Assembly: GCA_030581615.1 (NCBI GenBank) | Contig: JAKTTT010000042.1 | Coordinates: 62,001 to 126,000, forward strand | From: Alloascoidea africana | Lineage: Eukaryota; Ascomycota; Alloascoideomycetes; Alloascoideales; Alloascoideaceae | DNA length: 64,000 bases | Direction of reading: 5' to 3' | Part shown: piece by piece, positions 1 through 37,172 of the stretch | How the letters are laid out: every line of letters begins with the position of its first letter | Position numbering within the stretch: position 1 is the stretch's first letter | Translations under genes and position numbers: made by a program | The notes under the pieces: generated by a model | The model's database searches: none | The model's input: the letters and a program-made list of their open reading frames with translations, nothing else | Told to the model about the DNA's origin: nothing

Positions 1-1427
1 GGTGGGTTTGCCAAAGGTTGGAGCTGGGGAGGAACAGTAGCAGGAGGTTGAGGAATCACGCCTCCATTGGCCTGTATCTGTAACAGCCGGTCCACTCTTT
101 CCTTGATCTGGGGGTTATTTGGATCAAGAGCTGCAGCTTGTCGATAGGCACCCAAAGCGTCCTCGACCTGATTATTGCAAGTTTCATAAAGGGTTCCCAA
201 ATCGTACCAGACTTCGGAAATTCTGGGGTCTAAGCGAATAGCGCGGGAATATGCGTCCAGAGCATCACGATATTGGCTGATTTGATAATAAAGCACGCCT
301 ATAGAACACCAAAAAGTTGGATTTGAAGAGTCACGATTAACGGCCTGTTGGAAGGCTTCATAAGCCTTGTTGTAACTCTGGGAGGCCATATAGCATCTTC
401 CGAGTTGGTACCATGCCTGGGCATCGTTACCATCAATTTCCAACGATTTTGCCAGATAAGAAGCGGCAATTTCTTGGTCTGCAAAGGAAGAACCTTGTTC
501 GCTGTACAATATTCCCAAACGGAACAGGACTTTTGAATGATTTGGGTTTTCGGAGGGGACTTTTTCATAGGCTTCTTTTGCCAATAGATACTCCTTTTGT
601 TGTTCATAAATGTGACCAATTTGGAACCAAATGTCCACTTCTGTCAATGGAGCAGGAGGGTTTGATAAAATGTATTTAAAACATTGTAGACTTTGGGAGA
701 ATTTCGATTCGTGTTTGTATATAATTCCGAGTCTGAAATAGATCTCATTTGCTTTTTCAAAGTTTGGATCCATGTCCAAAACTCGGGAAAAGGCCTCCTC
801 GGCATACTCTATAGAGCCGTATCTGTCGTACAGTATGCCGATGCCATGCCATAGTTTGGGGACATTGTGATCGGGAAGATGACACAGAGCCTGTTGGTAG
901 GAGGAATAGGCGCTTTGTAAGTCGTCCATCATGAGGAAGCAGTATCCCAGTAACCCCCAGATTTCGCCATTTTCCTGGGCGATGCTGAGGACGGATTGGT
1001 AAAACTCGGCAGCCTTGTCGAACATGTCTTTACTGCGGTACAGATTCGCAATGGCGGTGAGCACCGCGGTGGAATACGGGTTGTGCCGCAGAGCGTTTTC
1101 GTAGGCACGGATGGCCTTGTCGGGGTCATCCAGTTTTTCCGCGAGCGTGCCGATGGTGAGCCAACAGTCAGAATTTGCGTTGAGCAGTTCTTTGTAGGAT
1201 TGAGGCATCTGGTCGGCCTGCTGTTGCTGCTGCTGTTGTGGAAGATGTTGTGGCAGATGCTGTGGCAGATGCTGGGACGGGGCCTGGAGGAGAGGCTGGG
1301 ACAGAGCCAGGGCGGTCTGCTGCTGGGGAGGTCCGTGTCCCTGCCCGTGGCCTTGCCCGGGGCCTTGGCCGTGGCCGTGGCCGTGGCTGTTTGTGTCTGT
1401 CGCGGAAGCAGAGGGAGCAGGTGGCAT
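1..1427 (-). CDS. CYC8: Cyc8/Ssn6 general transcriptional corepressor, TPR region (3' end cut by window edge)
   Basis: Encodes the first 475 residues of the Cyc8 (Ssn6) subunit of the nuclear Tup1-Cyc8 corepressor, which DNA-bound repressors recruit. The start is the ATG at 1427; an in-frame TGA lies about 80 nt upstream of it. Residues 1-80 are low complexity (HGHGQGPGQG, then a QHLP repeat and a Q run). From about residue 84 to 450 the chain is a continuous array of about ten TPR units. It matches S. cerevisiae Cyc8 closely, with blocks such as NVPKLWHGIGILYDRYGS and DAYTRAIRLNP-like segments recognisable. Past the last TPR a Pro/Gln-rich stretch (PQPPATVPPQLQP) runs off the left edge, as in the yeast protein, so the poly-Gln tail is missing only because of the window. 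The N-terminal third is much more GC-rich than the rest. The gene is divergent from the acetyl-CoA synthetase gene. Confidence 0.93.
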   Translation of the reverse strand, partial: MPPAPSASATDTNSHGHGHGQGPGQGHGQGHGPPQQQTALALSQPLLQAPSQHLPQHLPQHLPQQQQQQQADQMPQSYKELLNANSDCWLTIGTLAEKLDDPDKAIRAYENALRHNPYSTAVLTAIANLYRSKDMFDKAAEFYQSVLSIAQENGEIWGLLGYCFLMMDDLQSAYSSYQQALCHLPDHNVPKLWHGIGILYDRYGSIEYAEEAFSRVLDMDPNFEKANEIYFRLGIIYKHESKFSQSLQCFKYILSNPPAPLTEVDIWFQIGHIYEQQKEYLLAKEAYEKVPSENPNHSKVLFRLGILYSEQGSSFADQEIAASYLAKSLEIDGNDAQAWYQLGRCYMASQSYNKAYEAFQQAVNRDSSNPTFWCSIGVLYYQISQYRDALDAYSRAIRLDPRISEVWYDLGTLYETCNNQVEDALGAYRQAAALDPNNPQIKERVDRLLQIQANGGVIPQPPATVPPQLQPLANP

Positions 1428-1744
1428 TGGGTGTGTGGGTGGTGGAGAAGAAGAGAAAAACCGGGCGGGCTGCTCAAGAGAAACTGGCTTGGTCCCTCCC
1501 GGCCCGTGTCAGGTGCCGCCGCTGAGTCAGCACAGCTACCCGGGTGGGAAGGAAGGAAGCGGCACCCGCCCGTCCAGCAGACCCGCACGCGGCACCCGCC
1601 CCACCCGGGCGGGGAAGCGGCGGGTTCGCGCGGAGAGGCGCGGACGAGCGACTCGCCCAAACCTCCACGGAAAAGGGTATAAGAGCTTCACGGATTCGCA
1701 GAGGGAGCCAGCTGTATTCAACAGCAGAGACTTCACACCCAAAC
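1428..1744. promoter_or_regulatory. GC-rich divergent promoter CYC8 / acetyl-CoA synthetase
   Basis: This 317 nt spacer separates two divergent start codons and is strongly GC-rich, with many CG dinucleotides. A TATA-type element, TATAAG at 1678-1683, lies about 62-67 nt before the acetyl-CoA synthetase ATG. No comparable box is evident on the CYC8 side. Open frames extend through it in several phases, but these are a product of the high GC content. Confidence 0.6.
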
Positions 1745-3745
1745 ATGGCACCTCCAGTCGAAAGCACCACCTCCACGGGCAAGATCGAGCCCCATGCGAA
1801 AACGTATCTCCCCCCCGCGAGCTTCCACGACGCGCACCCAGGCAAGGCCCATCTCCAGTCGATGAACGAGTACAGGAGAATGTACCAGCAGTCGATTGAG
1901 GACCCAGAGACCTTTTTCGGCAACCACGCGCGCGAGCTGCTGACGTGGGACCACGACTTCACGACCGTCAAGAGCGGCGGGTTTGAGCACGGCGATGCGG
2001 CCTGGTTTTTGGAAGGCCATCTCAATGCCTGCTACAATGCGGTGGACAGGCACGCTGTCAAGGACCCCAGCAAAGTGGCCATCATCTACGAGGCCGACGA
2101 GCCGGGCCAGGGCCGCAACATCACGTACGGCGAGTTGCTCCAGGAGGTCTGCCGCGTGGCCAACGTGCTGAAGCGCTTTGGCGTCAGGAAGGGCGACACG
2201 GTGGCCGTGTACCTGCCCATGATCCCCGAGGTGATCATCACGCTGCTGGCAATTGTCCGTCTGGGTGCGATCCACTCGGTGGTGTTTGCCGGGTTCTCGT
2301 CCAGCTCGCTGCGGGATCGTATCTTGAACGCGGACTCCAAGGTCGTGATCACGACGGACGAGTCGAAGCGCGGCAGCAAGACGATCGAAACGAAGAAGAT
2401 CGTGGACGAGGCGCTCAAGCAGTGTCCGCGGGTGCAAAACGTGCTCGTCTACAAGCGAACGGGCACGGAGGTGCCGTGGACCAAGAACCGCGACTTCTGG
2501 TGGCACGAGGAGACCGTGAAGCACGTTGCCTACTGCCCGCCGGTGCCCGTCAACGCCGAGGACCCCATCTTCCTGCTGTACACGTCGGGCTCCACGGGCT
2601 CGCCCAAGGGCGTCGTGCACGCCACGGCCGGCTACCTCGTGTGCGCGGCCCTCACGGCCAAGTACACCTTCGACCTCCACAAGGACGACGTCATGTTCAC
2701 GGCCGGCGACGTGGGCTGGATCACCGGCCACACCTACGTGCTCTACGGGCCCTTGTTGCTGGGCTCCACCACGCTTGTTTTCGAGGGCACCCCGGCCTAC
2801 CCCAACTTCTCGAGATACTGGGACATTGTGGATGCTCACAAGGTCACCCACTTCTACGTTGCGCCCACCGCTCTGCGACTGCTGAAGCGCGCCGGCGACA
2901 AGTTCATTCACCACGACCTCTCGTCCATCCGCACCCTGGGCTCGGTGGGCGAGCCCATCGCGCCCGAGGTTTGGACCTGGTACTCCGACAAGATAGGCAA
3001 GGGCCGCGCCCATATCTGCGACACCTACTGGCAGACCGAAACGGGCTGCCATGTCGTCAGTCCCATGGCCGGCGTGTCGCCCACGAAGCCAGGCTCCGCG
3101 TCCTTCCCCATCTTTGGCATCGACACCATCATCTTGGACCCCAACTCGGGCAAAGAGTTGGAGGGCAACGACGTGGAAGGGGTGCTGGCCATCCGGTCGC
3201 CGTGGCCCTCCATGGCCCGTTCTGTCTGGGGCGACCATGTGCGCTACATGGACACCTATCTCAAGCCCTATGCTCCGTTCTACTTCACCGGCGACGGCGC
3301 TGCTCGAGATGGCGATGGCTTTTACTGGATCAGGGGCCGTGTCGATGACGTTCTAAACGTTTCGGGCCATAGACTGTCCACTGCGGAAATCGAGTCTGCT
3401 CTATTGGAAAATAGTAACGTTGCAGAGTCCGCGGTTGTGGGCATTACCGATGACCTTACAGGCCAATCTGTGAATGCTTTTGTATCTCTCAAATCCAAGC
3501 CCGAAAACGTTGATGATGTTAAAAAGGAACTCATTATTACTGTGCGTAAGGAAATTGGGCCATTTGCCTCCCCAAGACGAATCTTGCTCGTTGATGATTT
3601 GCCCAAGACACGAAGCGGCAAAATCATGAGACGTATCTTGAGAAAGATCCTGAGTGGTGAAGAAGACCAACTTGGTGATACAAGTACTTTGAGCAACCCG
3701 ACTGTGGTTGCCCATCTCATCGAGGTTGTTCACGCAACTACCTGA
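1745..3745 (+). CDS. ACS2: acetyl-CoA synthetase (AMP-forming)
   Basis: Makes acetyl-CoA from acetate, ATP and CoA, feeding lipid synthesis and protein acetylation. The 666-residue product aligns with yeast Acs2 over its whole length. The AMP-binding P-loop [11 protein letters not shown] is at 279-289, the conserved [10 protein letters not shown] and [12 protein letters not shown]-type blocks follow, and the catalytic lysine of PKTRSGK is K626. I chose the ATG at 1745 because it follows a TATAAG box by about 65 nt and because the protein begins there as Acs2 does; the frame stays open upstream, but with unrelated GC-rich sequence. Codon use is split: up to about 3340 (residue ~532) third positions are almost all G/C, while the last 130 codons have ordinary AT-richer usage with no break in homology. 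A 9-bp inverted repeat (ATGATGATG/CATCATCAT) lies a few bases past the stop. Confidence 0.96.
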
Positions 3746-4071: not shown

Positions 4072-6029
4072 TCAAAAAGCCTCGAGGATTCTGAGCGTGT
4101 TGGTATGTCCTAAACCATGGGTCCAACCCTGGATGGCAAGAACAACGTCTCCCTTTTTCAAAATTCCTAGGCTGACGGCCTCGTTGATGCCCCAACTCAA
4201 TCTCTCCTCAACGTCCTGCTGCCATAGTGAATTGTCGGTGAATGGCTTCTCGTAGATAAAGGGGTAAACTCCTCTGTACAAATGGGAAATCCTCGCGGCC
4301 CGTGGATTTCTCGTAATCATAATGATGGGACATAGAGGTCGGTATTTGGAACACAAACGAGCACTTGTGCCCGAAGTGCTGAGAACGATGATCGCCTTGG
4401 CGCTTTGCTCGAACGACGCAGACACGGCGGCACACGCAATCGTCTCAACCGTCTCGGTCGGCCTCTTGATCAACTGCCCGATTTCCTTGAGAGCTGGAGC
4501 ATATCCGATCGCTTTTTCAGCAATCAGACAGGTGTGGTGCATCATCTGGACAGCCTCCATGGGATAGTTGCCCTTGGCAGTTTCACCAGACAGCATGACA
4601 CAGTCCGCACCGTCGAGCACGGCGTTGCCCACATCGCTAACCTCTGCTCTCGTGGGCCTCGGGTTGTAGGTCATGGACTCCAACATCTGCGTTGCACAGA
4701 TAACAGGCTTGCCTGCCAAATTGCACTTTGCAATCAACTGTTTCTGAACAACAAACACCTCGTAGGCCGGAATTTCAATCCCCAAATCTCCACGCGCAAC
4801 CATGACACCATCCGTCGCTTCCAAAATCTCGTCAAAGTTGTTCACGCCCTGCTGGTTCTCAATCTTGGCAATGATCTGTATATGTTTACCGTCTTCTCCA
4901 AGAACCTTGCGGATTTCTCGAATATCGTTGCCTGTGCGGATGAATGAAGCAAAGATCATATTCACCTCGTTTTGAACCCCAAATCTGAGATCCGCCTTGT
5001 CCTTTTCCGAAAGCGCAGGTAAGTCCACATCTGTATTGGGCAAATTCACACCTTTATGGGAACAAATTTTACCAGAATTGATGGATTCAACCTTGAGTGT
5101 TCTATCATCCACAACCTCCACAACTTTAAACGAGAGAACCCCATCATCAATGTAAATGGTTTTCCCGGCTTCAATAACTTTGGACAAGTTTTTATAGTCA
5201 ATGTACATAATCTTGTCATCACAAGACTTTGCCCAGGTCTCATCCGTCGTAAACAACATTTGATGGCCCGCTTCAATAGGGTACTCAACTTCATTCCTTG
5301 TGGTCCCTGTTCTAATTTCAGGACCCTTGGTATCCAGTGCAATACCAAGTGGACGACCCGGATATAACTTTTCAGACTCTCTTGCATTATCAATCACAGT
5401 TTGATGATAATCATAAGAACCGTGTGAAAAGTTCATACGAACAATGTTTAGACCCGCTAAAAAAAAAAAAAAAAAAAAAATTAGTTAGATTGGAAATTAA
5501 AAAAAAATAAATTTAAACCCCCCGATGATGAAGGTGAAGCTCATCTTACCTTTTCGCAAGTCAACCATAATCTGGGCATTGTTTGTCTTTGGGCCTGGAT
5601 ATTAGGTAGGAAAGTTAGTTGACAATTCTAGAACAAGAAAAAGTATAGGAGGAGAGAAAAAAAAAACCGCATTGATTTGGATGGGATTAGGAAACAGCAA
5701 GCAATTGTTAGTGGTGTCCATTGGTGCTGGGGGACCAAAACATCAATCAAAAGCGTTGGGGGACGAAGACAAAAAAAAATTTAAAAAAAAAATGTAAGCG
5801 AGAACAAGGAGATTCTCAACGTGGTCAATCAATCAAGTTTTTTGATTGCCAATGTATGAGTCAATCGAAAATCGAAAATCAAAAGGTAGAGACATGTGTA
5901 TGTGGCTTTTTTGGACAGAGAGGGAAATTGAACGAACGTACCAATTGTGCCGATAATAGAGGTTCTTCTGTAATTCGCATGAGGAGTCTCCTTGACGTTG
6001 AAAGTGGTAAGCCAGTGAAGTTTGGACAT
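4072..6029 (-). CDS. PYK1: pyruvate kinase, three exons
   Basis: Catalyses the last step of glycolysis, phosphoenolpyruvate plus ADP to pyruvate plus ATP, in the cytosol. Exons by inspection: 6029-5942, 5594-5550 and 5456-4072, joining to 505 residues (yeast Pyk1 has 500). Exon 1 gives [10 protein letters not shown]...[10 protein letters not shown], exon 2 [14 protein letters not shown], exon 3 [14 protein letters not shown] onward; this restores the family sequence exactly. Intron 1 (347 nt) starts GTACGT and intron 2 (93 nt) GTAAGA. Intron 2 has CTAACTAA followed by 22 T and AG. The core carries the [22 protein letters not shown] and [12 protein letters not shown]-type blocks and the C-terminal allosteric domain. 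S. cerevisiae PYK1 has no intron, so two introns crowded at the 5' end are notable. High confidence in the junctions, since each intron removes a family-breaking insertion. Confidence 0.95.
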
Positions 6030-6424
6030 TTTGTGAAACTGTCTATCAGCAATCGATGGGAGTGATAACCAGTGGAGTATCAATTGGAAAAGGAAAACGT
6101 GGACGTGAAAGCAAAAAGTGGCAATGTGTTTTGGGGATCCTAGCAATACCACACAGATGCCTGGGAATAAATAGATAATGAGAATCTAAAGAGAAGAAGA
6201 ACAAGGGGGTGAAGAGGAAGAGGAAGAGGCAGAAAAAGAAAAAGCTAGGAGGCAGAGGGATGGCCAAGCACCGGACTAAAAGATAATTAGAGTTGTTTGC
6301 AGCGCCGGTACGAATTCGCAGCGCTTACTCGTATCTCAGCCAAATGGAAAGAAAAGGGAAAAGGGAAAAGGGAAAGGCCTCTGCGGCTCGCAGCGCCGCC
6401 GATCCGCCCTCCCCGAACAGCCTG

Positions 6425-6430
6425 GCACGT
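6425..6430. promoter_or_regulatory. CACGTG E-box (RTCACGTG on minus strand)
   Basis: CACGTGAT reads ATCACGTG on the opposite strand, the published core of the Cbf1-type bHLH site (RTCACGTG). It lies about 396 nt upstream of the pyruvate kinase ATG. Which factor binds is inference. Confidence 0.4.
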
Positions 6431-6496
6431 GATGTGTCGGAGAGGGACGGTCCCGGCTGGGCGAGCTGGAACCGTTCGCTGCCAGCCACAGGCCAA

Positions 6497-6526
6497 CTGC
6501 CTAGTTCTCTCGAGAGAACTAGGCAG
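6497..6526. repeat. perfect 30-bp palindrome
   Basis: The left half is CTGCCTAGTTCTCTC and the right half is its exact reverse complement with no spacer, the centre being the CTCGAG between 6509 and 6514. The flanking bases (A at 6496, C at 6527) do not pair, so 30 bp is its full extent. It sits in a GC-rich part of the pyruvate kinase promoter, about 470-500 nt before the ATG. It could be a dimer-binding operator or a cruciform-forming site; the sequence alone does not say which. Confidence 0.9.
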
Positions 6527-7242
6527 CGCAATCACAGAACATGCCCGAGTCCAGGATCCCCTAACGAGTGCTGTCCTGGCTGTTTGGCTGCTTTTCCCGC
6601 CCATGCCCTAGATCCTGCGGTACCTTGTAGATATCGTATCGTGCCCGTAGTTACGCCCCGTGCTGCAATGTACTGCAAATGAAGAGCAAAACCATTGTTG
6701 TTTTCTTTTCGTCCTTGCCTTGTTTCTTCAAGCCAGCGACAACGAGGTATGAACATGTTTTACTTCACACATGAGAAGAGAGGGGAAAATGAACGGATTC
6801 AGAACATGGATGATGAACAACATTTTACATTAACCTTATCTACATTAACTGATTTTCACAGTGATTGTTACAAAGTCTCTGACATTAATTTCTGTGTTCT
6901 TTTCCTCTTTTCCTCTTTTCATGTTTTAATGATTGACCGGACCATTACTAACATTATCATCATAGATGGATAAACTCCAATCACTGGACCAGAATCTATA
7001 GATCTTTACTACTCCTAGTATTTCTTGATATAGTTGAGGGGAAAATAAAAATATTCATAGTATCAAATAAAAAAGTCAAGAATCATTTTTTTATACACCA
7101 TTCTTTTTAACCTACTTTTACATACTTTATAACCTTTTTTTTTTTTTTGTTGTTTTAGTTATTCATAATACTAATAAAAAGTCAATGCCCCATATAGAAA
7201 AGCAACAACGATAATACAATTCCTCTCAAGTAACCACTACTA

Positions 7243-8997
7243 TCACTGATCAGTAACGTTACAACCAATTGAGAAAAAACTGTCACCTTCTGTTGATGCT
7301 CTACAAGTGGTACCATCAGCACATTGAAACAGGATCCATTTACCATGATCACAGATGGCAAATTCTCCTTGAGAGGAACATGCGAGTGCTCCATCTTTAC
7401 AGTTATCGGCGCTACCGTCAAAGTGCCCATCTGCGTAGCTCTTGTTCAAACACTCCGCTTTTGCAGATCCCTCTAGGGAAGAACAACTCGAAGAAGACGA
7501 TGAAGCCGAGCTCTCGGGGACAGAAGAAGGTGCAAGCTGTTTGCCCTCACCGGCGTCGAGTGAAGAAAGCGCCTGGGTGGAAGAGGGGGAAGAAGAGATG
7601 GTGGCGGTGACTCTGACTGTAATTGTAGACAGCGCCTCGGTGGAAGAATAGGATGAAGTAGAAGAAGCAGAAGAAGTAGAAGAAGAGATGGTGGAGGTGA
7701 CTCTGACTGTAATTGTAGACACGGATTTAGTGAGAGTGGTTGTGTCGGAATTGGAAGAGGAAGATGGTGGTGGTGATGACCAGACCGTGGCCATTGTAGA
7801 AGGAGTGAAAGCTCTGCTAGGAGATTCGTTAACTTGAGCTCCTTTAGTCGCAATGCTTAGCGTGTAATCTGAGGAAGCGGGCTGGAAACCGGTGCTAGAG
7901 TAGGCAGGAGCGATGCTTTGAATTGGTGAAGACCATGCTGGAGAAGCCACACTGGTATAGCTATCGCTATCGCTGCTGGTGTTGCTGCCACTATCACTGC
8001 TACTGGAGTCGCTGCTTCCGCTGCCGCTATTGCTGCCGCTATTGCTGCCACTGCTGCTGCCACTGCTGCTGCTTCCGCCGCCCAAGAGACTCTTCATCTG
8101 AACGGCAAAGTTGGTTCCATCAAGCGTGTTGGAGAAAGCCTGACTGACGTCCCAGATCGAAATACCTCCAAATACAGATTCCCCCAAAATGTTTCCCACG
8201 GCCGCTTTGACTACAGAAGGGTCCACGTAACCTGAGCCAGCAGCGCTAGGGGATCCAGGGAGACCTATGTAGATCTTGGTGTTTTTCTTGCCTGAGGCAT
8301 AATCGGCCCAAGTATCCCAGTTGAAGGCTTTTTGCAGAGCGCATGGGTTGTTGTAAAACTGGATAAAGACAAAGTCAATGTCCGAGGAGTCTAGAGAATC
8401 GCCAAGGCTCGCATCGGGATATACACATTGAGGAGCAGCCGAAATGTAAAACTGTTTCGAACCCGAGGCAAACTTCTCACGAAGAGAGGAAACAAGCGCC
8501 GAGTATCCCACCTGATTCCCATTTTCAATGTCAAGGTCAAACCCATCGAGAACAGCATCGTCAAACGGTCGCGATGAACCTGTACCCTCACCAAAGAGGT
8601 CCCACAGTTCCGTCGCGAAATCGCTTGCCTGAGAATCGCTGCTGAATCCGTAACTTCCTGTAGCTCCTCCTAGAGAAAGCAGCACGATTTTGCCCTTTTG
8701 TTGACATTTTTTAATATCTTCACCAATCTTGGGACAGTGCAAAAGGCCATCTGATCCAGTTTCGCTACATGCACCTGCAAAGTTTAGAGTGTTGGGTCCA
8801 GTGCCAAACCCATTCATAAAGGAGAGAAGAATAACGTCGACAGCATCGGAATCACAGTAGTCTCCCAAATCCTGTTGGGAACCAGCAGAGGCCTGGCCCC
8901 AATAAACGACAACGTTGTTGTTGGCATTTGCATCAAACGCAAAAACTGTGGTTACAGCGAAAAGCAAATAATAAAGAACGGAAATAAATGAAGACAT
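7243..8997 (-). CDS. CTS1: secreted GH18 endochitinase with CBM19 domain
   Basis: Hydrolyses chitin in the septum and wall so that daughter cells separate. The 584-residue product starts with a signal peptide (about residues 1-20, LYYLLFAVTTVFA). A GH18 barrel follows from about 25 to 305, with YWGQ near 32-35, the LLSLGGATGSYGF strand and the catalytic DGFDLDIE at 151-158 (acid E158). Residues ~310-500 are a Ser/Thr-rich, surely O-mannosylated linker with two copies of a TITVRVT-x-TISSS unit and Ser-Gly runs. Residues ~505-584 are a Cys-rich CBM19 chitin-binding module (CSSLEGSAKAEC...ICDHGKWILFQCADGTTC). This order is that of S. cerevisiae Cts1. The ATG at 8997 directly precedes the signal peptide. 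Confidence 0.95.
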   Translation of the reverse strand: MSSFISVLYYLLFAVTTVFAFDANANNNVVVYWGQASAGSQQDLGDYCDSDAVDVILLSFMNGFGTGPNTLNFAGACSETGSDGLLHCPKIGEDIKKCQQKGKIVLLSLGGATGSYGFSSDSQASDFATELWDLFGEGTGSSRPFDDAVLDGFDLDIENGNQVGYSALVSSLREKFASGSKQFYISAAPQCVYPDASLGDSLDSSDIDFVFIQFYNNPCALQKAFNWDTWADYASGKKNTKIYIGLPGSPSAAGSGYVDPSVVKAAVGNILGESVFGGISIWDVSQAFSNTLDGTNFAVQMKSLLGGGSSSSGSSSGSNSGSNSGSGSSDSSSSDSGSNTSSDSDSYTSVASPAWSSPIQSIAPAYSSTGFQPASSDYTLSIATKGAQVNESPSRAFTPSTMATVWSSPPPSSSSNSDTTTLTKSVSTITVRVTSTISSSTSSASSTSSYSSTEALSTITVRVTATISSSPSSTQALSSLDAGEGKQLAPSSVPESSASSSSSSCSSLEGSAKAECLNKSYADGHFDGSADNCKDGALACSSQGEFAICDHGKWILFQCADGTTCRASTEGDSFFSIGCNVTDQ

Positions 8998-14686: not shown

Positions 14687-15501
14687 ATGTCAATCCGGGT
14701 TTTCACAGAGATATTTCCACATAGGCCGATCACGACGAGTCTACGGACGACGGTCATAGGACTGGGCAAATTCCGAGCTTCGGCATCATCACAGATGAGC
14801 GGCATCCAGAGTCAGAGTCACAGACAAGGACAAGGACACAGACACAGGGAAAATCGGGGTCTCTGTGTGTGTCAGAGTTCACACCTAGCTCAGTATCGAT
14901 ACAGTTCAACACTTTCGAGACAGTTGGGGGATGGGGCCCGATGTCGGTTCTACAGCACAGCGCAGACGAGTAATGCTGGAGCAGGAAACGAGTCGGGACT
15001 GGAGAAAGGGTTCCCCAACAACGGCGCTGGAGAAACCGTGGTGAAGGCCAATCCTCGCAAGGACGAGAAGGGACAGGAGCTGAGACTATACATATCGGAG
15101 CGGGCAGCACAGGTAAGCTCTTTGTGTGTTTCTATTTACTGGGGAGTAATGGTTTGGCTAACTTTGGAGTGGATTAGCGGCTGAATGCAATCAAGGCAGA
15201 CGACCAGGGCGAGGACACGACCACGAGGCTCCAGATCCAGGTGGAAAGCGGCGGGTGCCACGGGTTCCAGTACAACCTGGCCCTGGTCGGCGGCGACAAG
15301 GTGGACCCGGAGGACACGATCTTTGCGCGGGACGGGGCCGAGGTGGTGATAGACGAGTCGTCGCTGTCGATTCTGCGCGAGTCCACGGTGGACTACACCA
15401 CGGAGCTCATCGGGAGCCAGTTCAAGGTCGTGGACAGCCCGTACACAAAGTCCAGCTGCGGATGCGGCACCAGCTTCGACTTTGACTTTTCCAAGGTGTG
15501 A
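14687..15501 (+). CDS. ISA2: mitochondrial iron-sulfur assembly protein Isa2, two exons
   Basis: Isa2 works with Isa1 and Iba57 to form [4Fe-4S] clusters in the mitochondrial matrix. Exons 14687-15112 and 15178-15501 give 249 residues. The 65 nt intron has GTAAGC, a GGCTAAC branch and TTAG; it splits the A-type domain just before RLNAIKAD. Key residues are the Cys of SGGCHGFQYNL and the C-terminal SSCGCGTSFDFDF, which resembles the SSCGCGSSFD of yeast Isa2 rather than Isa1. The N-terminus (MSIRVFTEIFPHRPITTS) is basic and hydroxylated, a good mitochondrial presequence. The ATG at 14687 is the first in frame. The second exon lies in a GC-rich patch while the first does not. Confidence 0.92.
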
Positions 15502-15838
15502 GCTCAGTGTAGATAGCTAGACGGGGTGAATATAGAAGGATTTAGAATGGATGGCGGTTGGCTTTTGTCCTGTGTGTGGCCTTTTCTTTTCTTTCGTATC
15601 CCTTCTCTTTCTCTTTCTTCTTCTTAACTCCATCACTCTTTCCATCTTCTCCAAACCGCAAAAAGCGACTGCAAAAAGCATCACCGGCACCCGGCCAGGA
15701 GTCTCCATCGTCCATCTGCAAACCATAATCCTTTTTCCCAGCCGGTCGAACCCAAAAGTGCCCGTAGTCCTCTTGTCTCAGAACCCACCACCCTCCGTCT
15801 TCCCCCCAGCTACAACAACACCTACACTTGAACCTGTC
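15502..15838. promoter_or_regulatory. spacer ISA2 to BBC1/AIM3-type gene
   Basis: 337 nt, CT-rich (15590-15660). The downstream frame is open here from an ATG at 15551, but the predicted N-terminus (a hydrophobic run, then low-similarity sequence) does not fit the family, so I treat it as promoter. A start at 15551 cannot be excluded. Confidence 0.4.
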
Positions 15839-18313: not shown

Positions 18314-18497
18314 GTCCCAAGAGGAACTCCAAGAGGAACTCCAAGAGGATCACCGAGACGAAGAGAAAGGGAGCTGGGAGAGCAGAAAGAGAAAGTGCTC
18401 CTCCAAGCGTGTAGACGAGGACATAGATGGTAATAGTAATAGTAACACTAACACTAACAGTAATGCTCACCTCCATCTCTCCTCCATCTGCTTCACC
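18314..18497. other. short GC-rich spacer with trinucleotide-like repeat
   Basis: Contains AGGAACTCCAAG repeats just after the stop and a TAATAG/TAACAC-type repeat at 18428-18466. ALG1 follows at 18498, so its promoter must be compact or lie inside the upstream gene. Confidence 0.5.
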
Positions 18498-29083: not shown

Positions 29084-31108
29084 CTAAGCCTTTTGATATC
29101 GAGCACTCATCACTGACACGGAGTTTGAAAGAGGAGACGCCGATCTTGAGTTTGTCATTCCACTTAGCCTTGCTTCCAATCTTTTTCGATCATGTTGTGC
29201 CTTTATCATATCTTCATAATGTCGTTTATTCATCTCAGAGGCCATTTTTTTCATTTCATGTCGTAATATAGCAGCTGCGGAGGATCCTCTAGGTTCTGGA
29301 GATGTATCCATACCATTAGGAGAAGAACCAATGGATGTTTGGTTATTAATAAGTCGTCGTCGACCACTTAACGGCGTTGAGGGAAGAGAATTCTGAGGTG
29401 AATAGAATTTGTTTGCTTGTGGACGTGAAGGAGAAGATGAACTGGTATTGTTGTTGTTGTTGTTGTTGTTGTCTTTACCCGATTCAAAGTTTGTCAGTAA
29501 GGTTGCAGGTGTTTCTCCCGAGGGTGATGATGATGTGTCAGAGATTGAAAACCCAGTAGAACTTGTGGATGTATATAACAATGAAGTTGTTGGGAAATTG
29601 TTTCGACCTATTGATTCCAATTTGTATTGTAAAGAGGCACTTTTCATCTCGTACATTTCGTTGTTTAACGAGTCGATTCTAGCATTAAGTTTTGAAATCA
29701 AATGTTCGGAATCAATTGCCTGTTGCGTTAATAGGTCAAGGTTTTGAACCGACTTGTCCAACTCTGTTTCCAAAGCATCACATTTCAATTTCCATTCACC
29801 AATAACGGATTTGAATGAAGACCGTTCATCATCGTATTGTCGTTGTAAATACATGTATTGATATTTGAGATCTTTTATTGTTTGTTTCAAATCTTTTGAT
29901 AAAACCTGGTTTGAATTTAATTGGCTTTGAGTACTTGAAAGCATTCTACGAAGGTTTTGAAAAGAGTTTAGGGTGTCATTAGAGCGGATGGCTTGGGAAT
30001 TTTGAATAGACATGGGAGAGGTAAGGTCGGTCTCTGCGCTTTCTGCAGACTCTGTGGAGGTGTTTGATGCAGATGATGAATTGTGAAGGTCATCGTCATA
30101 CTCATCATCCTCATCGAAAGAGGCATGGAATCTGCCATGTTCCAATACCTGTCGAGTAAGGCTGTGGTTGTTGGAAGAAGGCATTTTTTTTCTGCCCACG
30201 TTTAAAGGAGGTATTCTAGTCAGTGGTTGCTTTTGGTGTTCTTTCGTTTCCTTGTCCTGGACCAGCAGATCGATTAGATGTTTTGTCTGTGCGCATGGAT
30301 CGGACGTATCAAGCTTGTCCATTGTGATATTAATATCCCGGCTTGCCAGAATGGACGCCAAATATCCGTTTATCATGTCCACCTGGTTGGTTTCGGAGGA
30401 CGCGATTGCACTTGTGCTAGCACTTGTGCTAGCACTTGCACTTGCACTTGCACCTGTGGTTGCACTTGTGATGGCCAAACTACCGTTATTCAGATCTGAG
30501 TTTAACGAATAACCGAGAATTAGACATCCAATGCAGTGGTTCAATAAAGAATCTCGTAGTTTTAGTGCAGAGGCCGAGTTTGGAACTTGGTAGAGTAGCA
30601 GCTCGTTACACAGGTCGTCGAACTCGATTTTCGAAAGCACGATATACTGGCGTTCAGCTTTCCGGGACGAAGATATAAGGAGGTCAGTGGGCTCTGGAGG
30701 TATTATGGAGTCGAGATCTGGCCTTGGGTGTAGTTTTGTATTTAGAAAAATTATGGAAGCTTCCACGAGCTGGTGGATCATTATGGAGAGAGCAAAGTTT
30801 GAGCGTGAAAAATAAACGTCGTGTTTCAGCCGCTGGGACAGGTTGATGTTGAGGGACGGCAGATGGAGGCCCAGGAGGAATTTGGGGTCGAAGGAGGCTG
30901 TCAGGGTGGATTCGTCCTGGTCATTCTCGTTCTCGAGGAGGTTTCGGGAAGGTTGAGCTATGATAATATCGGGGGCAGAGTCAGGTTGTGGAAGCGACGC
31001 TGGTGGGCTAGTGGTGAGGTACAGCGGGTCCCAGGGCGAGCGCTGCGACGTGTCCCAGATGCGGAAAGGAGAGGACGCCAGCTGGAGTGGCAGGGGCACG
31101 GTCTTCAT
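29084..31108 (-). CDS. uncharacterised coiled-coil protein, possible Spa2-like polarity factor
   Basis: I do not recognise this 674-residue protein with confidence. The ATG at 31108 gives MKTVPLPLQLASS; the frame stays open upstream without ATG in GC-rich sequence. Residues 1-175 look folded (FLLGLHLPSLNINLSQ, SIMIHQLVEASIIFLNTK). Residues 149-173 (RKAERQYIVLSKIEFDDLCNELLLY) faintly resemble the Spa2 homology repeat. Then come Ser/Ala repeats (SASASASTSAST), an acidic segment (DEDDEYDDD) and a strong coiled coil at about 383-496. After an Asn run (NNNNNNNN), the C-terminus is basic with a short helix (ILRHEMKKMASEMNKRHYED). Overall shape suits a cytoskeletal or polarity scaffold. That role is inference; a GIT/SHD-domain search would decide. 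Confidence 0.6.
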   Translation of the reverse strand: MKTVPLPLQLASSPFRIWDTSQRSPWDPLYLTTSPPASLPQPDSAPDIIIAQPSRNLLENENDQDESTLTASFDPKFLLGLHLPSLNINLSQRLKHDVYFSRSNFALSIMIHQLVEASIIFLNTKLHPRPDLDSIIPPEPTDLLISSSRKAERQYIVLSKIEFDDLCNELLLYQVPNSASALKLRDSLLNHCIGCLILGYSLNSDLNNGSLAITSATTGASASASASTSASTSAIASSETNQVDMINGYLASILASRDINITMDKLDTSDPCAQTKHLIDLLVQDKETKEHQKQPLTRIPPLNVGRKKMPSSNNHSLTRQVLEHGRFHASFDEDDEYDDDLHNSSSASNTSTESAESAETDLTSPMSIQNSQAIRSNDTLNSFQNLRRMLSSTQSQLNSNQVLSKDLKQTIKDLKYQYMYLQRQYDDERSSFKSVIGEWKLKCDALETELDKSVQNLDLLTQQAIDSEHLISKLNARIDSLNNEMYEMKSASLQYKLESIGRNNFPTTSLLYTSTSSTGFSISDTSSSPSGETPATLLTNFESGKDNNNNNNNNTSSSSPSRPQANKFYSPQNSLPSTPLSGRRRLINNQTSIGSSPNGMDTSPEPRGSSAAAILRHEMKKMASEMNKRHYEDMIKAQHDRKRLEARLSGMTNSRSASPLSNSVSVMSARYQKA

Positions 31109-31601
31109 GGCGATGGGCGAGGATAGGCGAGCGAGAACCAGACGGTGAGCGAGAAAGAGAGAGAAGCAGAAGTGAGGGAGACGGCGAGAGAAGGAGAGAA
31201 GCAGCGAAAAGGGTCTTCGGAGGCACAGCACGCGAATCCAAAAGCCAAAAGCCAAAAGCCAAAAAGCCAAAGAGCCAAAAAGCCAGATCGCGGCTGGCAG
31301 ACGCGCCCGAGAAGCTTTCTGGCGGGCCCTGGGACGGAGACTGGGACTAAGACTGGGACACGGGCAGAGCTGGGAGCAGGCTGGGAGCAGACGGCGGTGC
31401 TGTTCTTCTGGTCGGGTCTGCTCAGCTCGGCTGGCCGCTGGACGGCTCGAAGGAGGTGTCTCGGTCTCTTCTCTTCTCTGGAAGACACGCCTCGGCCAGC
31501 TGGAAACGCGAGCATCTACGACAGGAACGGGCTAACTACGGGCAGAAGCAAGAAGCAAGAAGCAAGAAGCAGATGGAGGGCAACGGGACATGGCAGCTCG
31601 T

Positions 31602-31640
31602 TTTGTTTTGTTTTGTTTTGCTTTGTTTTGTTTTGTTTCG
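31602..31640. repeat. TTTTG pentanucleotide run
   Basis: Consecutive TTTTG units with one C interruption, on the plus strand. A simple sequence repeat, near the 3' end of CCR4. Confidence 0.8.
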
Positions 31641-31673
31641 TTTCGGACTGTTCTCCAAATCAACAAAAGGGAC

Positions 31674-31721
31674 ATTAGGATTAGGATTAGAATTAGTATT
31701 AACATTAGCATTAGCATTAGC
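31674..31721. repeat. ATTAGN hexamer microsatellite
   Basis: Eight hexamers in register: ATTAGG twice, then ATTAGA, ATTAGT, ATTAAC and ATTAGC three times. A shorter ATTAGG run occurs at about 22541-22557. Confidence 0.85.
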
Positions 31722-31783
31722 AGTCGCACTAGCAGACACCAGTCGCAGACACATTGTCACAGACACTTGTCAGACACTTGCCG

Positions 31784-33949
31784 CTAGCAAAACCGCGGCG
31801 CGGGCCTCTTTTTCTGCTCTTGACGGGCCCTCGTGAAGGCAAACTGGGCCATCAGCGGGATGTGATCCGACGGATGGTGGCCGTCTGGCAGCCCGACGAT
31901 TCGCTTCACGTACTCGCGGTCCACCGCTCCAAGCAGCCCTCGCACCGACAGCAGCTCCGTGCTGAACCAGACGTAGTCGATCGAGGCCGTGAAGTCGGGC
32001 GTGCAATTGGTGAACGGCAGCTCGCCAATCTCCTTGTAGGCCGACCGCAGGCTGAAGCGGTGCCGAAACCCTTCGCTCGTCAGCTTCCCGTAGTCCCGTC
32101 CGTCGGTGTCTTCGTGCCCGTGGACCGACCCATTCGCTAGCAGTTCGTACACGGCGCTATTCGTCTTCGAGTTGAAGTCGCCACATAGAACCAGGGCCAC
32201 TCGATGTCCAGAGCCATCCGCACTGGTGCCATCCGCACTGGTGCCATCCACACTGGTCGTCCCGGTTCTCGAGTACCTCTTCACGAGCGTTTGCAACTCC
32301 TCGACCAAGGCAATCGCCTGTATCAGCTTCACGTCGTTCAAAGCAGGGTCCCAGTGCAAATGGGTGTTGACCACCACCATTTTTTGCCCACTGGATTTGT
32401 GCTCCAAGTAAAGTGAAAGCGCGATATTGTCTCGGTTTACAACACGGTTGAAAATATCGTCCGTTTTCTTGAACCGGTCATTGCCCATGATGACCCGAGA
32501 AAATTCAATAGCATGCTTTTCAATCAGCTTGAACTTTCCCATCCGGTAGAAAGTAGCACATCCATCAACTTTTTTAGCCTCCTCCCCTTTCATCGTCTTG
32601 CATCGCGCTTTCGCATGGAAACACCCCTGGTATCCATGCGATTCGAGCTTTGGTTTCCAATATTCCTCAAACGTTTGCGTTTCAACCTCTTGTAAACACA
32701 GCACGTCCGCTTCCGATCCAACCAACTCCTTTTTTAGCCTTTCTCTTCGAATATGCCAGTCCAATGCCCATCTTGCAACATACTTGTACTGTGTTTCGGT
32801 TGCATAGTGCTGGCAAAGAGTATTGTAACTCATTACACTAAACTCATTCTCCGACCTGGGTTTGGGTTTGCTCACATCTGTGTCATCTTTATCTGCTGCT
32901 TCCTCATCCAAATCTTCTATTTCGCCATCCTCTCCAAATCGAATCCAGGGTCGCTGGTCCGGTGATTGCAACTTTGGCATTGTCTCCCGCAAATCGCGTA
33001 TCATTTTTTTAGTTCCAAAGGCTGCAATTTTTTGCAAAAATTTTGGTTCCAAATCATTACCTTCCAATCCAATATATTCCAATCGGAAAAGTTTGCCAAA
33101 TTCAACGGGAATTGTCCTGATTTCATTATCAAACAGATACAGATATCGAAGATTGTACAACATCCCCAATTCCCCAGGTAACTCCGTTATAAGATTACTT
33201 GAAAGATCCAATACCTTTAAACCTCGAAGCTTGGTAATTGCAATTGGAATTTGTTTGATTCTATTCCCGTTCAGATAAAGCCTTTGCAAAAAATTGTATT
33301 GGAACAACGCCAAAGACAAATTGATAATGTTTTGACCGCTGAGATCCAACATATACCACCAATTCTTCTGTTTCTCATCTTCCATATCGTGTATATTCTG
33401 ATCTTCATCCTCCCCCATAGGTACACTTCTCTTTGTCTCATAGTTGAATCCAGTACCGCCACCGAGATCCTCGTTGTTCCCCATTTCATCTTCACAACGA
33501 ACCATTTTGATAGTTGATTCCAACAAGGACAGATTATCTAATCCATTAATGCTACCACCGCCTTGCACATTGGAAAATTTCTTCAAAACCGCTTTCCTGG
33601 CATGGTAATGAGGTTGATTTGAACTTCTTGAAACCTGGCACAGAAAGACTTGCTGTTTCCACCAAAAACTTGTCACTAGAGAAAGATCCAACCTGGTTGT
33701 CATACTATGGTATCCCACAGACCTGAACCGCTGTTGTTCATCCATTCGGTCTCGCTGCTGAATAGGCTGCTGTACCTGTGGTTGAAACGGTGAAACGCTG
33801 TACACCTGTTGAGTATTCTGTTCATCCGAATTCAACCAAATATGGTCGTTTGTATTGTAGAAAGTATGTTGTGGTTGCATTGCAAACTCTTGTCCTTCGT
33901 GTTGTTGATGTTGTTGTGACGGTTGGAAATTTGGAGCTACTATTGTCAT
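31784..33949 (-). CDS. CCR4: Ccr4 poly(A) deadenylase, catalytic subunit of CCR4-NOT
   Basis: Removes mRNA poly(A) tails in the cytoplasm as part of CCR4-NOT. The 721-residue product starts with a Gln-rich region. A leucine-rich repeat segment follows at roughly 205-330 (LQRLYLNGNRIKQIP, LKVLDLSSNLITELP, LRYLYLFDNEIRTIP), which binds the NOT1-CAF1 module, then the EEP nuclease domain from about 365. Active-site blocks are SYNTLCQHY (~371), CLQEVE (~419), GDFNSK (~590) and SDHIPLMA (~694). Between the NTHLHWDP block and CGDFNSK there is a species-specific insert with SVDG/SADG repeats. ATG 33949 begins MTIVAPNFQ. The last ~170 codons are in GC-rich DNA and the rest is not. Confidence 0.95.
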   Translation of the reverse strand: MTIVAPNFQPSQQHQQHEGQEFAMQPQHTFYNTNDHIWLNSDEQNTQQVYSVSPFQPQVQQPIQQRDRMDEQQRFRSVGYHSMTTRLDLSLVTSFWWKQQVFLCQVSRSSNQPHYHARKAVLKKFSNVQGGGSINGLDNLSLLESTIKMVRCEDEMGNNEDLGGGTGFNYETKRSVPMGEDEDQNIHDMEDEKQKNWWYMLDLSGQNIINLSLALFQYNFLQRLYLNGNRIKQIPIAITKLRGLKVLDLSSNLITELPGELGMLYNLRYLYLFDNEIRTIPVEFGKLFRLEYIGLEGNDLEPKFLQKIAAFGTKKMIRDLRETMPKLQSPDQRPWIRFGEDGEIEDLDEEAADKDDTDVSKPKPRSENEFSVMSYNTLCQHYATETQYKYVARWALDWHIRRERLKKELVGSEADVLCLQEVETQTFEEYWKPKLESHGYQGCFHAKARCKTMKGEEAKKVDGCATFYRMGKFKLIEKHAIEFSRVIMGNDRFKKTDDIFNRVVNRDNIALSLYLEHKSSGQKMVVVNTHLHWDPALNDVKLIQAIALVEELQTLVKRYSRTGTTSVDGTSADGTSADGSGHRVALVLCGDFNSKTNSAVYELLANGSVHGHEDTDGRDYGKLTSEGFRHRFSLRSAYKEIGELPFTNCTPDFTASIDYVWFSTELLSVRGLLGAVDREYVKRIVGLPDGHHPSDHIPLMAQFAFTRARQEQKKRPAPRFC

Positions 33950-34751
33950 GTTTTTGTTATTCTCTCTTGAAGCAAAATTCAGGTCAACTTGTTTCTAGTG
34001 GGGGTTTAAAGTCCAAACTTGGCATATGCCAGAAGGCAATTGAGTATGGTTTTCTCTTCCACCGTTTCAAAGCTTTGTTCCAGTCTTGCGACCTGACCTG
34101 ATTGTGTGAAAGAAAAGGAAAAGGAAAAGAAACTTGATAGAAAGAAGAAAGAAACTAAAGAAAGAGAAGAGAAAGCGCCAAAAAAGCGTAGAAACAAGTA
34201 TATTTAGAAAAACAATTCCCTAATTTCTTTCAAATTAGAACCAATTCACTTCAAAGAAGGCGCTTTATCGCCTAGCGCACTGCATCTTTCATCATCTTCA
34301 CAGAAAGTAAAAGGTTGGTAAAACCACGAGGCGCATCTCTCACACGTTACAACAGACAGAGGGATCTGGAGGGGGATACGGGATGTTCAACTACGGATTG
34401 GGCCCGTTGGCGAAAAAAGATCTGGCAACTCAACTTACTTTACCGATTTGTGTTAGGTGAGTGCTAAAGAGCGTTTTGGTGATGCCAGAGAAGCTGGCAG
34501 AGATGGAATTATGTCATCCCGGTCAGAAGACCTCCTCCAGCCGCCATCCCCGGCGCCATGGACTTGGGCATTGGCAGGGCATTGGCAGGGCACTGGCAGG
34601 GAGGCCTGTTCTGTCTAGTATGTAGGGCTATGGACTATGGAAGCACGGCGGCCGGGGACGATAGGCTCGAAAAAGAGTGAAAAAAGAGTTGGTGGAACAG
34701 CAAAGATGCCGCCTGGGCTCATGAGACCGGTCTCGTAGTCTAGTGGAAGAG
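33950..34751. promoter_or_regulatory. CCR4 promoter / VAC7-like 3' region
   Basis: 802 nt. It is AT-rich near the CCR4 ATG and turns GC-rich from about 34480, including three tandem 11-mers at 34566-34598. No gene seen. A tRNA-like string near 34731 was examined and rejected. Confidence 0.45.
34566..34598. repeat. three tandem 11-bp repeats (GGGCATTGGCA)
   Basis: Two identical copies and a third with one change (GGGCACTGGCA), head to tail, inside the GC-rich patch downstream of the VAC7-like gene. Confidence 0.85.
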
Positions 34752-37172
34752 TTAGTGGAGTGCCAGTGCTACGCGAATGTCGCTGGAGATGCTTACTGTT
34801 GCGATTCGTGAGGTCCTGGTTCCGAACCCAAGAGGCCAGGGCAGCCTTGATTCGAGTGTGAGATGGCCCCGGACAAGAAGCACAAACGGGCGAGACGAGA
34901 TCTCGCTCCATGTTGGATTGGCGGATTGGCGGGCGGCGCCTTGGTCTTCTTGAATGAGCATCTTGGAAATGGGGACTCGAACAGATCCAGTACTGCTGCT
35001 AAATACACCACCGGGCGACTCTTGTAACCCATTTGAATCTGAATCATTTGCGGGCTTGCTTGAGACCAGCATTCTAAGCGCCTTGACGGGCCCAAGAGAA
35101 AAGATACCTGGAAATTCAAGAGCATCATCAAACGAATCAGCATGACCCAAGAAGAAAGTTGTAAACTTTGTTGACTTCTTCTCAATTATACCATCAAAGT
35201 TTTCCACTTGTTCACCTTCAAGCTCTAAATAACGACTTTTTGCGAAAACATCAACGCTTAAACTTTTAACTTGGAAATTATAGAATCCCATGTTTATCGC
35301 GTCAAAATCCATATCATAAATAACCGTATTTTCTGTTGTGATCACTTTCCCAATCTTCCGAGTTGTCAGCATTGTCAATGAAGGACCCGTGATGTTTAAC
35401 ATTTGCATTACAGAAAAGCCTTTACTGTATAGGTAAAACGTTATTGAGATTATGAAAACCGTTAAAACAATTGAAATCAGAACGAGAAAATGTCCCATGC
35501 ATTTCAAAAATCGGCTTCTGGTGGTGCTTTCTGTATCTGTATCATTAACGGCAATATAATCTTGGAAAGTCGTATATTTGGAAACATCAATATCAAGTGA
35601 TATTGGCTTTGATGCATTGTCAAGAGAATTTGAAAAAGAAAACATTAAAGAGTTGGAAAGAGATTTGGATCGACCATTATTAAAGAATATGGGATCCTTG
35701 TTACGAAAACCCAATTCTGGAACTGTGGCATGCCTATTGTGGTTTTTTTTGTTATGTTTCCTGCTTCGGTTATGCTTGCCATGATTAGGTGTAAAATTTT
35801 CAGGAAACTGAGATCTGTTGTTTAAAGCGGATTTAAGTGGAGTCCTCTCATTGTTCCAATCAGTACTATCCATTCCTTGTAAAATGCTGGTGCAATGCTC
35901 AGACATTTGGCGATTCGCATATTCTATGCTTTCATTGGGGAATACATCATCTCTAGTGCTCGTTTCTGAAATCGATCCATAGTTTGATCGAGAGGAAAAA
36001 GAAGAATGAAGGGATCTGGTTTTAGGATTCCGGCTTACGTTTATAAAACAGCCACTCCTAAAATCATCTTTGCCTTTTTCTTCATTGATTCCTCCTTCTC
36101 CATTAATACTACTATGGATAGATAAATCCTCCTGTAAATTTCTTGTTGGTGATATTCTTATGGAATCTTCAAAATCCGCATTGTATTGTTCACTGTACAT
36201 GCTCATGTTTGTAGTACCCATAAAAGAATGCAGAAAGCCATAATCAATTGGATTATAATTCTCGGGAGATAGTAGAGATTCAGTGAATACTGAAAAGTAT
36301 TCAGGACCATAATGATTGTTATATAAAGACGCCACAGTTTCGCCATCGTTTGATAATGGACAATGATTACCATCATCATTGGTTACAAAACTCTCCAGTG
36401 TCAAAAGTCCATTGGTAGTTGCAACCTGAGAGATTCCAAGAACTGTATCTATATCATCTTCTCGTCGTGTTGTTGTTGTATTTCGTTCAAACTCAGTTGA
36501 AATCGTTGATTCAGATACAGCCAAACTTTTAACCGTTTCACATGATCCATAACTTTTAAAGCGACGATGATTGGTCACAGTTTGAAGTGGAGTGGAACAA
36601 TCAGACTCTATATATCCGTGGTTATCATAAGATTCTGAAATGGTGGCACTTTTGGGTTTATCTCGGCATGAATCATGAACATTTGGTTGTATTCTGTAGT
36701 TTTTATCAAATCCGTTCGGGGGTTCATAAACCAATGAATCTATACTTTCTGATGGAAATCTGGATTGTTTCAAACCAATATCTATCTTTCGATCATCAAG
36801 GGATCTTGCTCCTTTGATTCTTGTATTAATTTCAATGTTTCTTCCCTTTAGAGTTTTCATTCGCAAAGCAGATTTATCCACCAAGTTGAGATCTGATTGA
36901 TCATCATCATCATCATCATCATAAGAAGGATATCGAAATATGATATCGTTTGTTCCACTTGACAGTGTCTTGCTTAAACCAAGAGAGGAAAAATTATATT
37001 TGTTGTTATTATCCTCTACCACACTTGAATCTTTTGGAGAAAAATGCTCAATACTTGAACTTTTAAAATGATTCCTAGATGGAATCACCACTCCCATTTT
37101 GTTCTGACAACCACATGGGGAAACAACTTCTAAATTAATTCCGCATCGGTTATTCCTTTTGCTGTTTGGCAT
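34752..37172 (-). CDS. VAC7: Vac7-like vacuolar membrane protein
   Basis: Vac7 activates the Fab1 lipid kinase complex that makes PI(3,5)P2 on the vacuole. The 806-residue product has a long disordered cytoplasmic part (about 1-555, Ser/Asn-rich, with a Cys-rich N-terminus and a DDDDDD run), then one membrane span at about 559-583 (FLVLISIVLTVFIISITFYLYS). A luminal domain follows with the blocks YDMDFDAINMGFYNFQVKSL, VDVFAKSRYLE and WSEISSRPFVLLVRGHL, which fit the Vac7/Tag1 family. I cannot fully exclude the related Tag1. The start is the first in-frame ATG, 37172. The last ~60 codons run into GC-rich DNA, and the protein ends TSRIATVSISSDI, like the family. Confidence 0.75.
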   Translation of the reverse strand: MPNSKRNNRCGINLEVVSPCGCQNKMGVVIPSRNHFKSSSIEHFSPKDSSVVEDNNNKYNFSSLGLSKTLSSGTNDIIFRYPSYDDDDDDDQSDLNLVDKSALRMKTLKGRNIEINTRIKGARSLDDRKIDIGLKQSRFPSESIDSLVYEPPNGFDKNYRIQPNVHDSCRDKPKSATISESYDNHGYIESDCSTPLQTVTNHRRFKSYGSCETVKSLAVSESTISTEFERNTTTTRREDDIDTVLGISQVATTNGLLTLESFVTNDDGNHCPLSNDGETVASLYNNHYGPEYFSVFTESLLSPENYNPIDYGFLHSFMGTTNMSMYSEQYNADFEDSIRISPTRNLQEDLSIHSSINGEGGINEEKGKDDFRSGCFINVSRNPKTRSLHSSFSSRSNYGSISETSTRDDVFPNESIEYANRQMSEHCTSILQGMDSTDWNNERTPLKSALNNRSQFPENFTPNHGKHNRSRKHNKKNHNRHATVPELGFRNKDPIFFNNGRSKSLSNSLMFSFSNSLDNASKPISLDIDVSKYTTFQDYIAVNDTDTESTTRSRFLKCMGHFLVLISIVLTVFIISITFYLYSKGFSVMQMLNITGPSLTMLTTRKIGKVITTENTVIYDMDFDAINMGFYNFQVKSLSVDVFAKSRYLELEGEQVENFDGIIEKKSTKFTTFFLGHADSFDDALEFPGIFSLGPVKALRMLVSSKPANDSDSNGLQESPGGVFSSSTGSVRVPISKMLIQEDQGAARQSANPTWSEISSRPFVLLVRGHLTLESRLPWPLGFGTRTSRIATVSISSDIRVALALH

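Follow-up and report, generated by a model that had tools for sequence, protein, structure and literature searches.

The genome of Alloascoidea africana (23.18 Mb in 138 contigs) contains a region in which short GC-rich islands often begin or end inside genes, and these islands are the subject of the present report. The window, which is the whole stretch of 64,000 nucleotides analysed here, covers bases 62001-126000 of contig JAKTTT010000042.1 (hereafter C42; 197,881 bp, GC 41.7%). Its proteins are of ascomycete yeast type (AIM3/BBC1, Opy2, a CCR4-like LRR-nuclease, and a sub-threshold Vac7 match), and CTG codons correspond to leucine at 18 of 18 compared positions, which points to a lineage outside the CTG-Ser clade. 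The GC content of C42 does not fit the 48% reported for Geotrichum (PMC4479816).

GC-rich islands on the contig

Islands were called by a two-state Viterbi segmentation with state GC contents of 0.60 and 0.41, which finds 18 on C42, 10 of them at window positions 1-36 kb and none at 36-64 kb (Table 1). A preliminary description, made by eye, had listed seven GC-rich patches in this part of the window, and the segmentation recovers all of them: the outer edges agree within ~190 bp for six, the patch 30820-32280 is called as two islands, and the patch 15180-15480 is the core of the larger island 14724-16288. Two weaker islands, 4358-4717 and 7877-8265, were absent from that list.

The islands are strongly clustered. 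Of 13,778 island bases on the contig, 9,943 fall in contig 62-97 kb (window 0-35 kb) and 3,835 in the remaining 163 kb, and when the 18 islands were placed at random 1000 times, the best 35-kb span held at most 9,656. Individual islands within this domain are 0.3-2.4 kb long, and the domain itself measures roughly 35 kb, or up to 59 kb if its weaker flank is counted. No islands appeared in five contig sequences simulated with an order-3 Markov model, although such simulations lack gene structure and the rest of the contig is a fairer control. Further comparison DNA consisted of eight 5-kb samples from other contigs (40 kb in total) and the loci of paralogous copies. The samples held one island, which covers the 5' portion of a malate synthase gene (contig C3) and the DNA upstream, and three of the six loci of other acetyl-CoA synthetase copies hold one as well; islands do occur elsewhere in the genome, but they look more thinly spread there. 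The non-island DNA of the domain also has a 4-mer signature shifted from the rest of the contig, with a centroid distance of 0.154 (0.083-0.123 for other contiguous blocks).

Table 1. Genes, GC-rich islands and the repeat-rich domain in the left part of the window
Feature	Position	Strand	GC	Remarks
CYC8/SSN6-like TPR gene	1-1427	-		5' part, continues left of the window; TPR repeats from Pfam; presumably CYC8
Acetyl-CoA synthetase	1745-3745	+		C42:63745-65745
Pyruvate kinase	4072-6029	-		Three exons by eye, ATG at 6029
GH18 chitinase	7243-8997	-
Iron-sulphur cluster assembly gene (Fe-S_biosyn)	14687-15501	+		Intron 15113-15177, GC 0.40
AIM3/BBC1-like gene	15551-18313	+
Group 1 glycosyltransferase	18498-19892	+
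Transketolase	20135-22120	-		Pfam match begins at profile position 29, so that an unannotated 5' exon probably lies upstream
Open frame of unknown function	29084-31531	-		Pfam DUF7801 below cut-off
CCR4-like gene	31784-33949	-		LRR and exo/endonuclease/phosphatase domain; taken by us to be CCR4
Gene with sub-threshold Vac7 match	34752-37172	-
Island 1	974-3386		0.627	5' end of CYC8/SSN6-like gene, divergent promoter (GC 0.65), acetyl-CoA synthetase codons 1-547
Island	4358-4717			Within pyruvate kinase; overlaps excess codon-identity tract shared with C32 copy
Island	6376-6666		0.632	Noncoding, upstream of pyruvate kinase
Island, weak	7877-8265			Within GH18 chitinase gene
Island	14724-16288			Fe-S gene and 5' part of AIM3/BBC1-like gene
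Island	17161-19338		0.626	3' end of AIM3-like gene, junction (GC 0.48), 5' half of glycosyltransferase
Island	20515-21407			Within transketolase; GC-rich patch and codon identity common to C57 and C17 copies
Island	30829-31600			5' end of open frame 29084-31531
Island	31720-32378			3' end of CCR4-like gene
Island	34518-34940			3' end of gene with sub-threshold Vac7 match and sequence past that end (GC 0.59)
Domain	1-35000			Contig 62-97 kb; 53 arrays of short tandem repeats, of which 34 lie between islands

Composition inside the islands

GC contents at the first, second and third codon positions (GC1, GC2, GC3) are 0.608, 0.488 and 0.710 inside the islands versus 0.485, 0.409 and 0.403 outside, and noncoding GC is 0.583 versus 0.374, with three noncoding pieces strongly raised (0.59-0.65). 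As had been noted at the outset, codon usage shifts inside single genes that straddle island edges. In acetyl-CoA synthetase the GC3 percentages of successive 50-codon bins are 80, 80, 94, 86, 92, 98, 96, 84, 86, 88, 64, 38 and 44; GC3 of 80-98% is thus kept for ~500 codons and lost after about codon 547, down to ~40%, while GC1+2 is constant at 44-56 across the same bins. The CCR4-like gene climbs from 34% to 86% GC3 at its 3' end, the gain lying in the last 200 codons, the AIM3/BBC1-like gene has 64-86% toward both ends and 26-44% over most of its middle, and the open frame 29084-31531 drops from ~72% at its 5' end to ~25%.

Profile shapes were fitted on third positions (n=9, one fit joining two others), and four came out graded, one box-shaped and three tied, with one having no peak; the box is better by 6 units of the Akaike information criterion (AIC) in the AIM3-glycosyltransferase stretch. 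For the acetyl-CoA synthetase island, the bell-shaped fit peaks at a logit shift of ~2.9 over background GC3. These fits replaced one on mixed coding and noncoding sites (box in 3 of 6, bell clearly in 1, undecided in 2), because two coding stretches, the Fe-S gene and the 5' portion of the open frame at 29-31 kb, had been counted there as noncoding.

Nearly all G- and C-ending codon classes rise in the islands, including NCG, CAG and CGC/CGG, which are little used by RPL3 and EF1A. These two genes (823 codons) form the whole codon reference for high expression; their GC3 is 0.43 and their preferred codons are AGA, GGT, TCT and CAA. Locus L035, whose translation resembles what we take to be mitochondrial EF-G, was left out of the reference, and the verdict is the same with or without it. 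Codon adaptation was rejected, as the island codons are unlike those of RPL3/EF1A and the shift affects one acetyl-CoA synthetase copy out of seven; a match of the islands with codon adaptation, which the preliminary description had named as evidence against its own reading, is therefore not the case. Amino acid composition is also altered: proline (ratio 1.57), alanine (1.43), arginine (1.28) and glycine (1.26) are up in the islands, and asparagine, isoleucine, phenylalanine and lysine are down to 0.61-0.64. The islands are a product of compositional drive, not of codon optimisation.

Direction of change against paralogous copies

Seven copies of acetyl-CoA synthetase were found in the genome, of which the window copy is the only GC-rich one (GC3 0.79; others 0.38-0.52). 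When it is compared with the copy on contig C30, synonymous differences with G/C in C42 outnumber the reverse by 176:21 inside the island and are balanced outside (18:18). The CCR4-like gene compared with its C24 copy gives 47:2 inside and 63:58 outside, and its amino acid differences favour GC-richer over GC-poorer codons by 47:12 inside and 95:85 outside. Alcohol dehydrogenase (ADH), which lies outside the islands, shows no lean of the C42 copy toward G/C against two other copies (48:68 and 49:66).

Polarised counts were obtained for acetyl-CoA synthetase with four of five further copies as outgroups (L005 was left out). On the C42 branch the AT-to-GC and GC-to-AT changes in the island part number 52:3, 61:4, 61:6 and 65:8 for the four outgroups, versus 6:2, 9:7, 7:3 and 8:7 outside the island, and the island part of the C30 branch runs in the opposite direction (11:45, 11:44, 11:42 and 8:27). 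Polarising at saturated sites itself leans toward such a contrast between the two branches, and the unpolarised comparison inside and outside the island of one gene is therefore the stronger evidence. At the protein level the C42 copy has the longer branch (0.138 vs 0.086). Synonymous change in acetyl-CoA synthetase and the CCR4-like gene is directed from AT to GC and bound to position.

The same copies bear on the question of a foreign donor. Both parts of acetyl-CoA synthetase, inside and outside the island, show equal closeness to the C30 copy (0.83 and 0.81, respectively). In both trees that copy is the sister of the C42 copy, supported at 0.89 in the tree of the island part and at 0.77 in that of the whole gene; no phylogenetic conflict between the inside and outside of the segment was found for this one gene, compared with copies within the genome. 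A donor from outside this lineage is not supported for acetyl-CoA synthetase by these trees. It had been argued earlier that foreign DNA is excluded since single genes straddle the island edges. The straddling is real, but the argument was too strong, because homologous replacement could straddle genes too; a better case rests on the paralog tree, which covers one gene. The AIM3-glycosyltransferase island and the 29-34 kb stretch were searched for copies at the DNA level, with short or distant matches only, and no CYC8 copy adjoining the C30 acetyl-CoA synthetase was found in the 4.5 kb that its locus (L002) spans.

Possible marks of recombination

Excess codon identity between paralogs was sought with a permutation test on codons that are identical where the amino acid is shared, which covered the available paralog pairs in overlapping windows (347 with the C42 copy and 529 with other copies). 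Values of z>=4 are confined to two stretches, codons 381-500 of transketolase and codons 221-320 of pyruvate kinase, and both overlap islands. In transketolase the tracts join C42 with C57 (codons 401-500) and C57 with C17 (codons 381-460), and z is 3.6 for C42-C17; in pyruvate kinase the pair is C42-C32, and a third copy with 95% protein identity in that region shows no excess (29 of 68 codons identical, 27.4 expected). The chance of both tracts lying in islands, estimated from the island coverage of the two genes, is ~0.46 x 0.26, two genes being few. Judged from codon identity, these tracts may resemble the aftermath of interlocus conversion with dispersed paralogs.

The domain is also rich in short tandem repeats, at 1.51 arrays per kb overall and 1.36 per kb between islands. 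Elsewhere on the contig there are 14 arrays in 38-62 kb and 25 in the other 139 kb (0.18 per kb), so that the density in the domain is ~8 times that of the contig outside 38-97 kb; contig 110-165 kb (110001-165000) holds no array at the threshold used. The eight 5-kb samples contain 18 arrays in 40 kb (0.45 per kb), and Markov copies of the domain 0-2 in all. In the C32 copy of pyruvate kinase (locus L037) GC3 is near 80% over the first ~120 codons, where the window copy is GC-poor, and island position thus differs between sister copies. The 4 kb beside this GC-rich 5' half hold an island (1855-3702) and 11 arrays; a repeat-rich island upstream had been expected beforehand, informally and for this single stretch. 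Repair of meiotic breaks in humans is reported to raise indel rates strongly (PMC7615360), and by this analogy a link between break repair and the tandem repeats of the domain is plausible.

Origin of the islands

No other single account fits the islands as well as GC-biased gene conversion in a domain of active recombination, and we favour it with modest confidence. The ~35-kb domain would recombine, or would long have recombined, much more than the flanking DNA; breaks would be repaired by gene conversion between alleles and in part between dispersed duplicates, with a preference for G/C over A/T; and over many substitutions the islands would climb toward GC saturation, irrespective of gene and frame. 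We infer that recombination is the cause, that it would be meiotic (a gene with a Spo11/TopoVI-A domain is present in the genome), and that the bias would arise in mismatch repair. A stronger version, which we regard as rather doubtful, is that ongoing conversion between dispersed duplicates, and not allelic promoter hotspots, mainly drives the islands; a break-prone, repeat-rich domain would then be brought to GC saturation by ectopic together with allelic conversion, which would alter proteins without adaptive benefit.

Several observations weigh against GC-biased conversion. The noncoding response is weak at the junctions 18314-18497 (GC 0.48), 31532-31783 (0.43) and 15502-15550 (0.43) and in the intron of the Fe-S gene (0.40), where background noncoding GC is 0.37 and GC3 alongside is ~64-88%. 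The first two junctions carry AT-bearing tandem repeats, and promoter or terminator constraint may hold junction GC down. Amino acids in the acetyl-CoA synthetase island have no GC direction (31:31), and transketolase against its C57 copy gives 39:37 inside the island and 64:41 toward G/C outside, the former being uninformative because the C57 copy is equally GC-rich there. Both codon-identity tracts sit in strongly conserved protein regions, and z>3 is also reached in alcohol dehydrogenase windows outside islands (3.1 and 3.2) and in two acetyl-CoA synthetase pairs of other copies (3.4 and 3.5). At 18 other loci tandem-repeat arrays number 0.30 per kb in the 7 with an island and 0.38 in the 11 without. 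Among 36 non-island genes the 5'-3' gradient of GC3 is not significant (19/36, p 0.16), and islands are not enriched at gene starts, with 5 of 10 within 300 bp of an ATG versus 5.2 expected. The GC bias of gene conversion in Saccharomyces cerevisiae is itself disputed (PMC9246145). The preliminary description had read the islands as footprints of recombination hotspots, several of them centred on promoters or gene junctions; GC-biased conversion survives from that reading as the favoured account, but promoter-centred hotspots are not supported. Fitted peaks lie in gene bodies in four stretches (acetyl-CoA synthetase, transketolase, pyruvate kinase and Fe-S) and at junctions in two others.

A regional mutation bias, in which replication timing, open chromatin or repair makes mutations GC-directed without recombination, likewise predicts change across frames and genes, and it is named as an alternative for GC3 domains of yeasts in PMC9246145. 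We hold it to be unlikely: GC3 of 94-98% would demand an extreme bias at the kilobase scale, paralog codon-identity tracts are not predicted, and the noncoding junctions should respond fully, yet do not. This lag of several junctions and one intron behind GC3 fits codon- or transcript-level selection for G/C-ending codons in particular genes or parts of genes, as does the presence of central carbon genes among those affected (acetyl-CoA synthetase, pyruvate kinase and transketolase here, citrate synthase elsewhere on C42, malate synthase on C3). Such selection is nevertheless highly improbable, given that RPL3 and EF1A avoid these codons, that the shifts fall within genes, that the paralogs of acetyl-CoA synthetase lack them, that noncoding islands exist and that CCR4 amino acids shift too.

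The sharpness of some edges, as in the AIM3-glycosyltransferase stretch with its box-shaped fit, the shifted 4-mer signature of the non-island DNA and the duplicated blocks pointing to ancient doubling or hybridisation could all be expected from homologous replacement (introgression) from a GC-rich sister lineage, possibly tied to a hybrid or duplicated origin of the genome. The left arm of chromosome C in Lachancea kluyveri reportedly has a sharp GC-rich shift that is argued to be introgression; that block is said to be continuous and arm-scale, whereas the islands here are smaller than genes. The ten islands in 36 kb would require many events, the other eight shape fits are graded (4), tied (3) or without a peak (1), and both parts of acetyl-CoA synthetase are equally near the C30 sister copy. 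A donor that split off after the duplication would possibly fit that tree, and we consider introgression quite unlikely overall. Causation could also run in reverse, the islands being GC-rich for another reason and GC-rich DNA attracting breaks, repeats and ectopic conversion; in S. cerevisiae a higher GC content reportedly increases recombination (Kiktev et al., as cited in PMC9246145 and PMC6730849). This would leave the origin of the islands unexplained, and tandem repeats are dense between the islands too; it is very unlikely.

GC-biased conversion also finds partial parallels in other fungi. The conversion described around meiotic breaks of S. cerevisiae and Candida (PMC3020949) is alike in its position-driven GC3, its kilobase scale and, for the four of nine fits that are graded here, its profile; in that work coding sequence is almost free of breaks and GC is modelled to be higher at gene ends, whereas islands here are often inside genes and reach GC3 of 98%. 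High-GC3 gene clusters of Saccharomycotina (PMC9246145) share a non-adaptive nucleotide bias that varies along chromosomes, but were measured per gene in 20-gene windows, and here the switch occurs within genes over a few hundred bases. The flanks of the Cryptococcus MAT locus (cited in PMC6730849) are likewise local GC-rich fungal DNA tied to recombination, a tie that is putative here; in contrast to that locus, no mating-type domain was found among the 25 proteins scanned with Pfam. Given the dispute over the GC bias of yeast gene conversion, a GC3 that jumps from ~40% to 98% and back in one gene, but not in its sister copies, offers a natural experiment of unusual clarity, and the locus would let the bias, strength and protein cost of conversion be measured directly.

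Gene duplication in the genome

The gene order transketolase-ADH-CCR4 on C42 (20135-33949) is split over C57:67983-71833 (transketolase, ADH) and C24:40562-46343 (ADH, CCR4). Full-length RPL3 is present in two copies, and EF1A-like genes, pyruvate kinase and transketolase in three each, the EF1A copies on C20 and C1 being named by frame length and score only. The seven acetyl-CoA synthetase copies form three close pairs and one single; three are on C42 (C42:63745-65745 and ~181-185 kb) and the others on C30, C112, C18 and C56. Such arrangements are signs of what may have been an ancient genome doubling or a hybrid origin; the literature on such yeast-like lineages, as partly covered here, turned up no usable account of whole-genome duplication. 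The ADH copy on C24 has a GC-rich block of 600 bp upstream (L032:1300-1900, up to 73% per 100 bp), while the DNA upstream of the C42 copy has ~45% GC.

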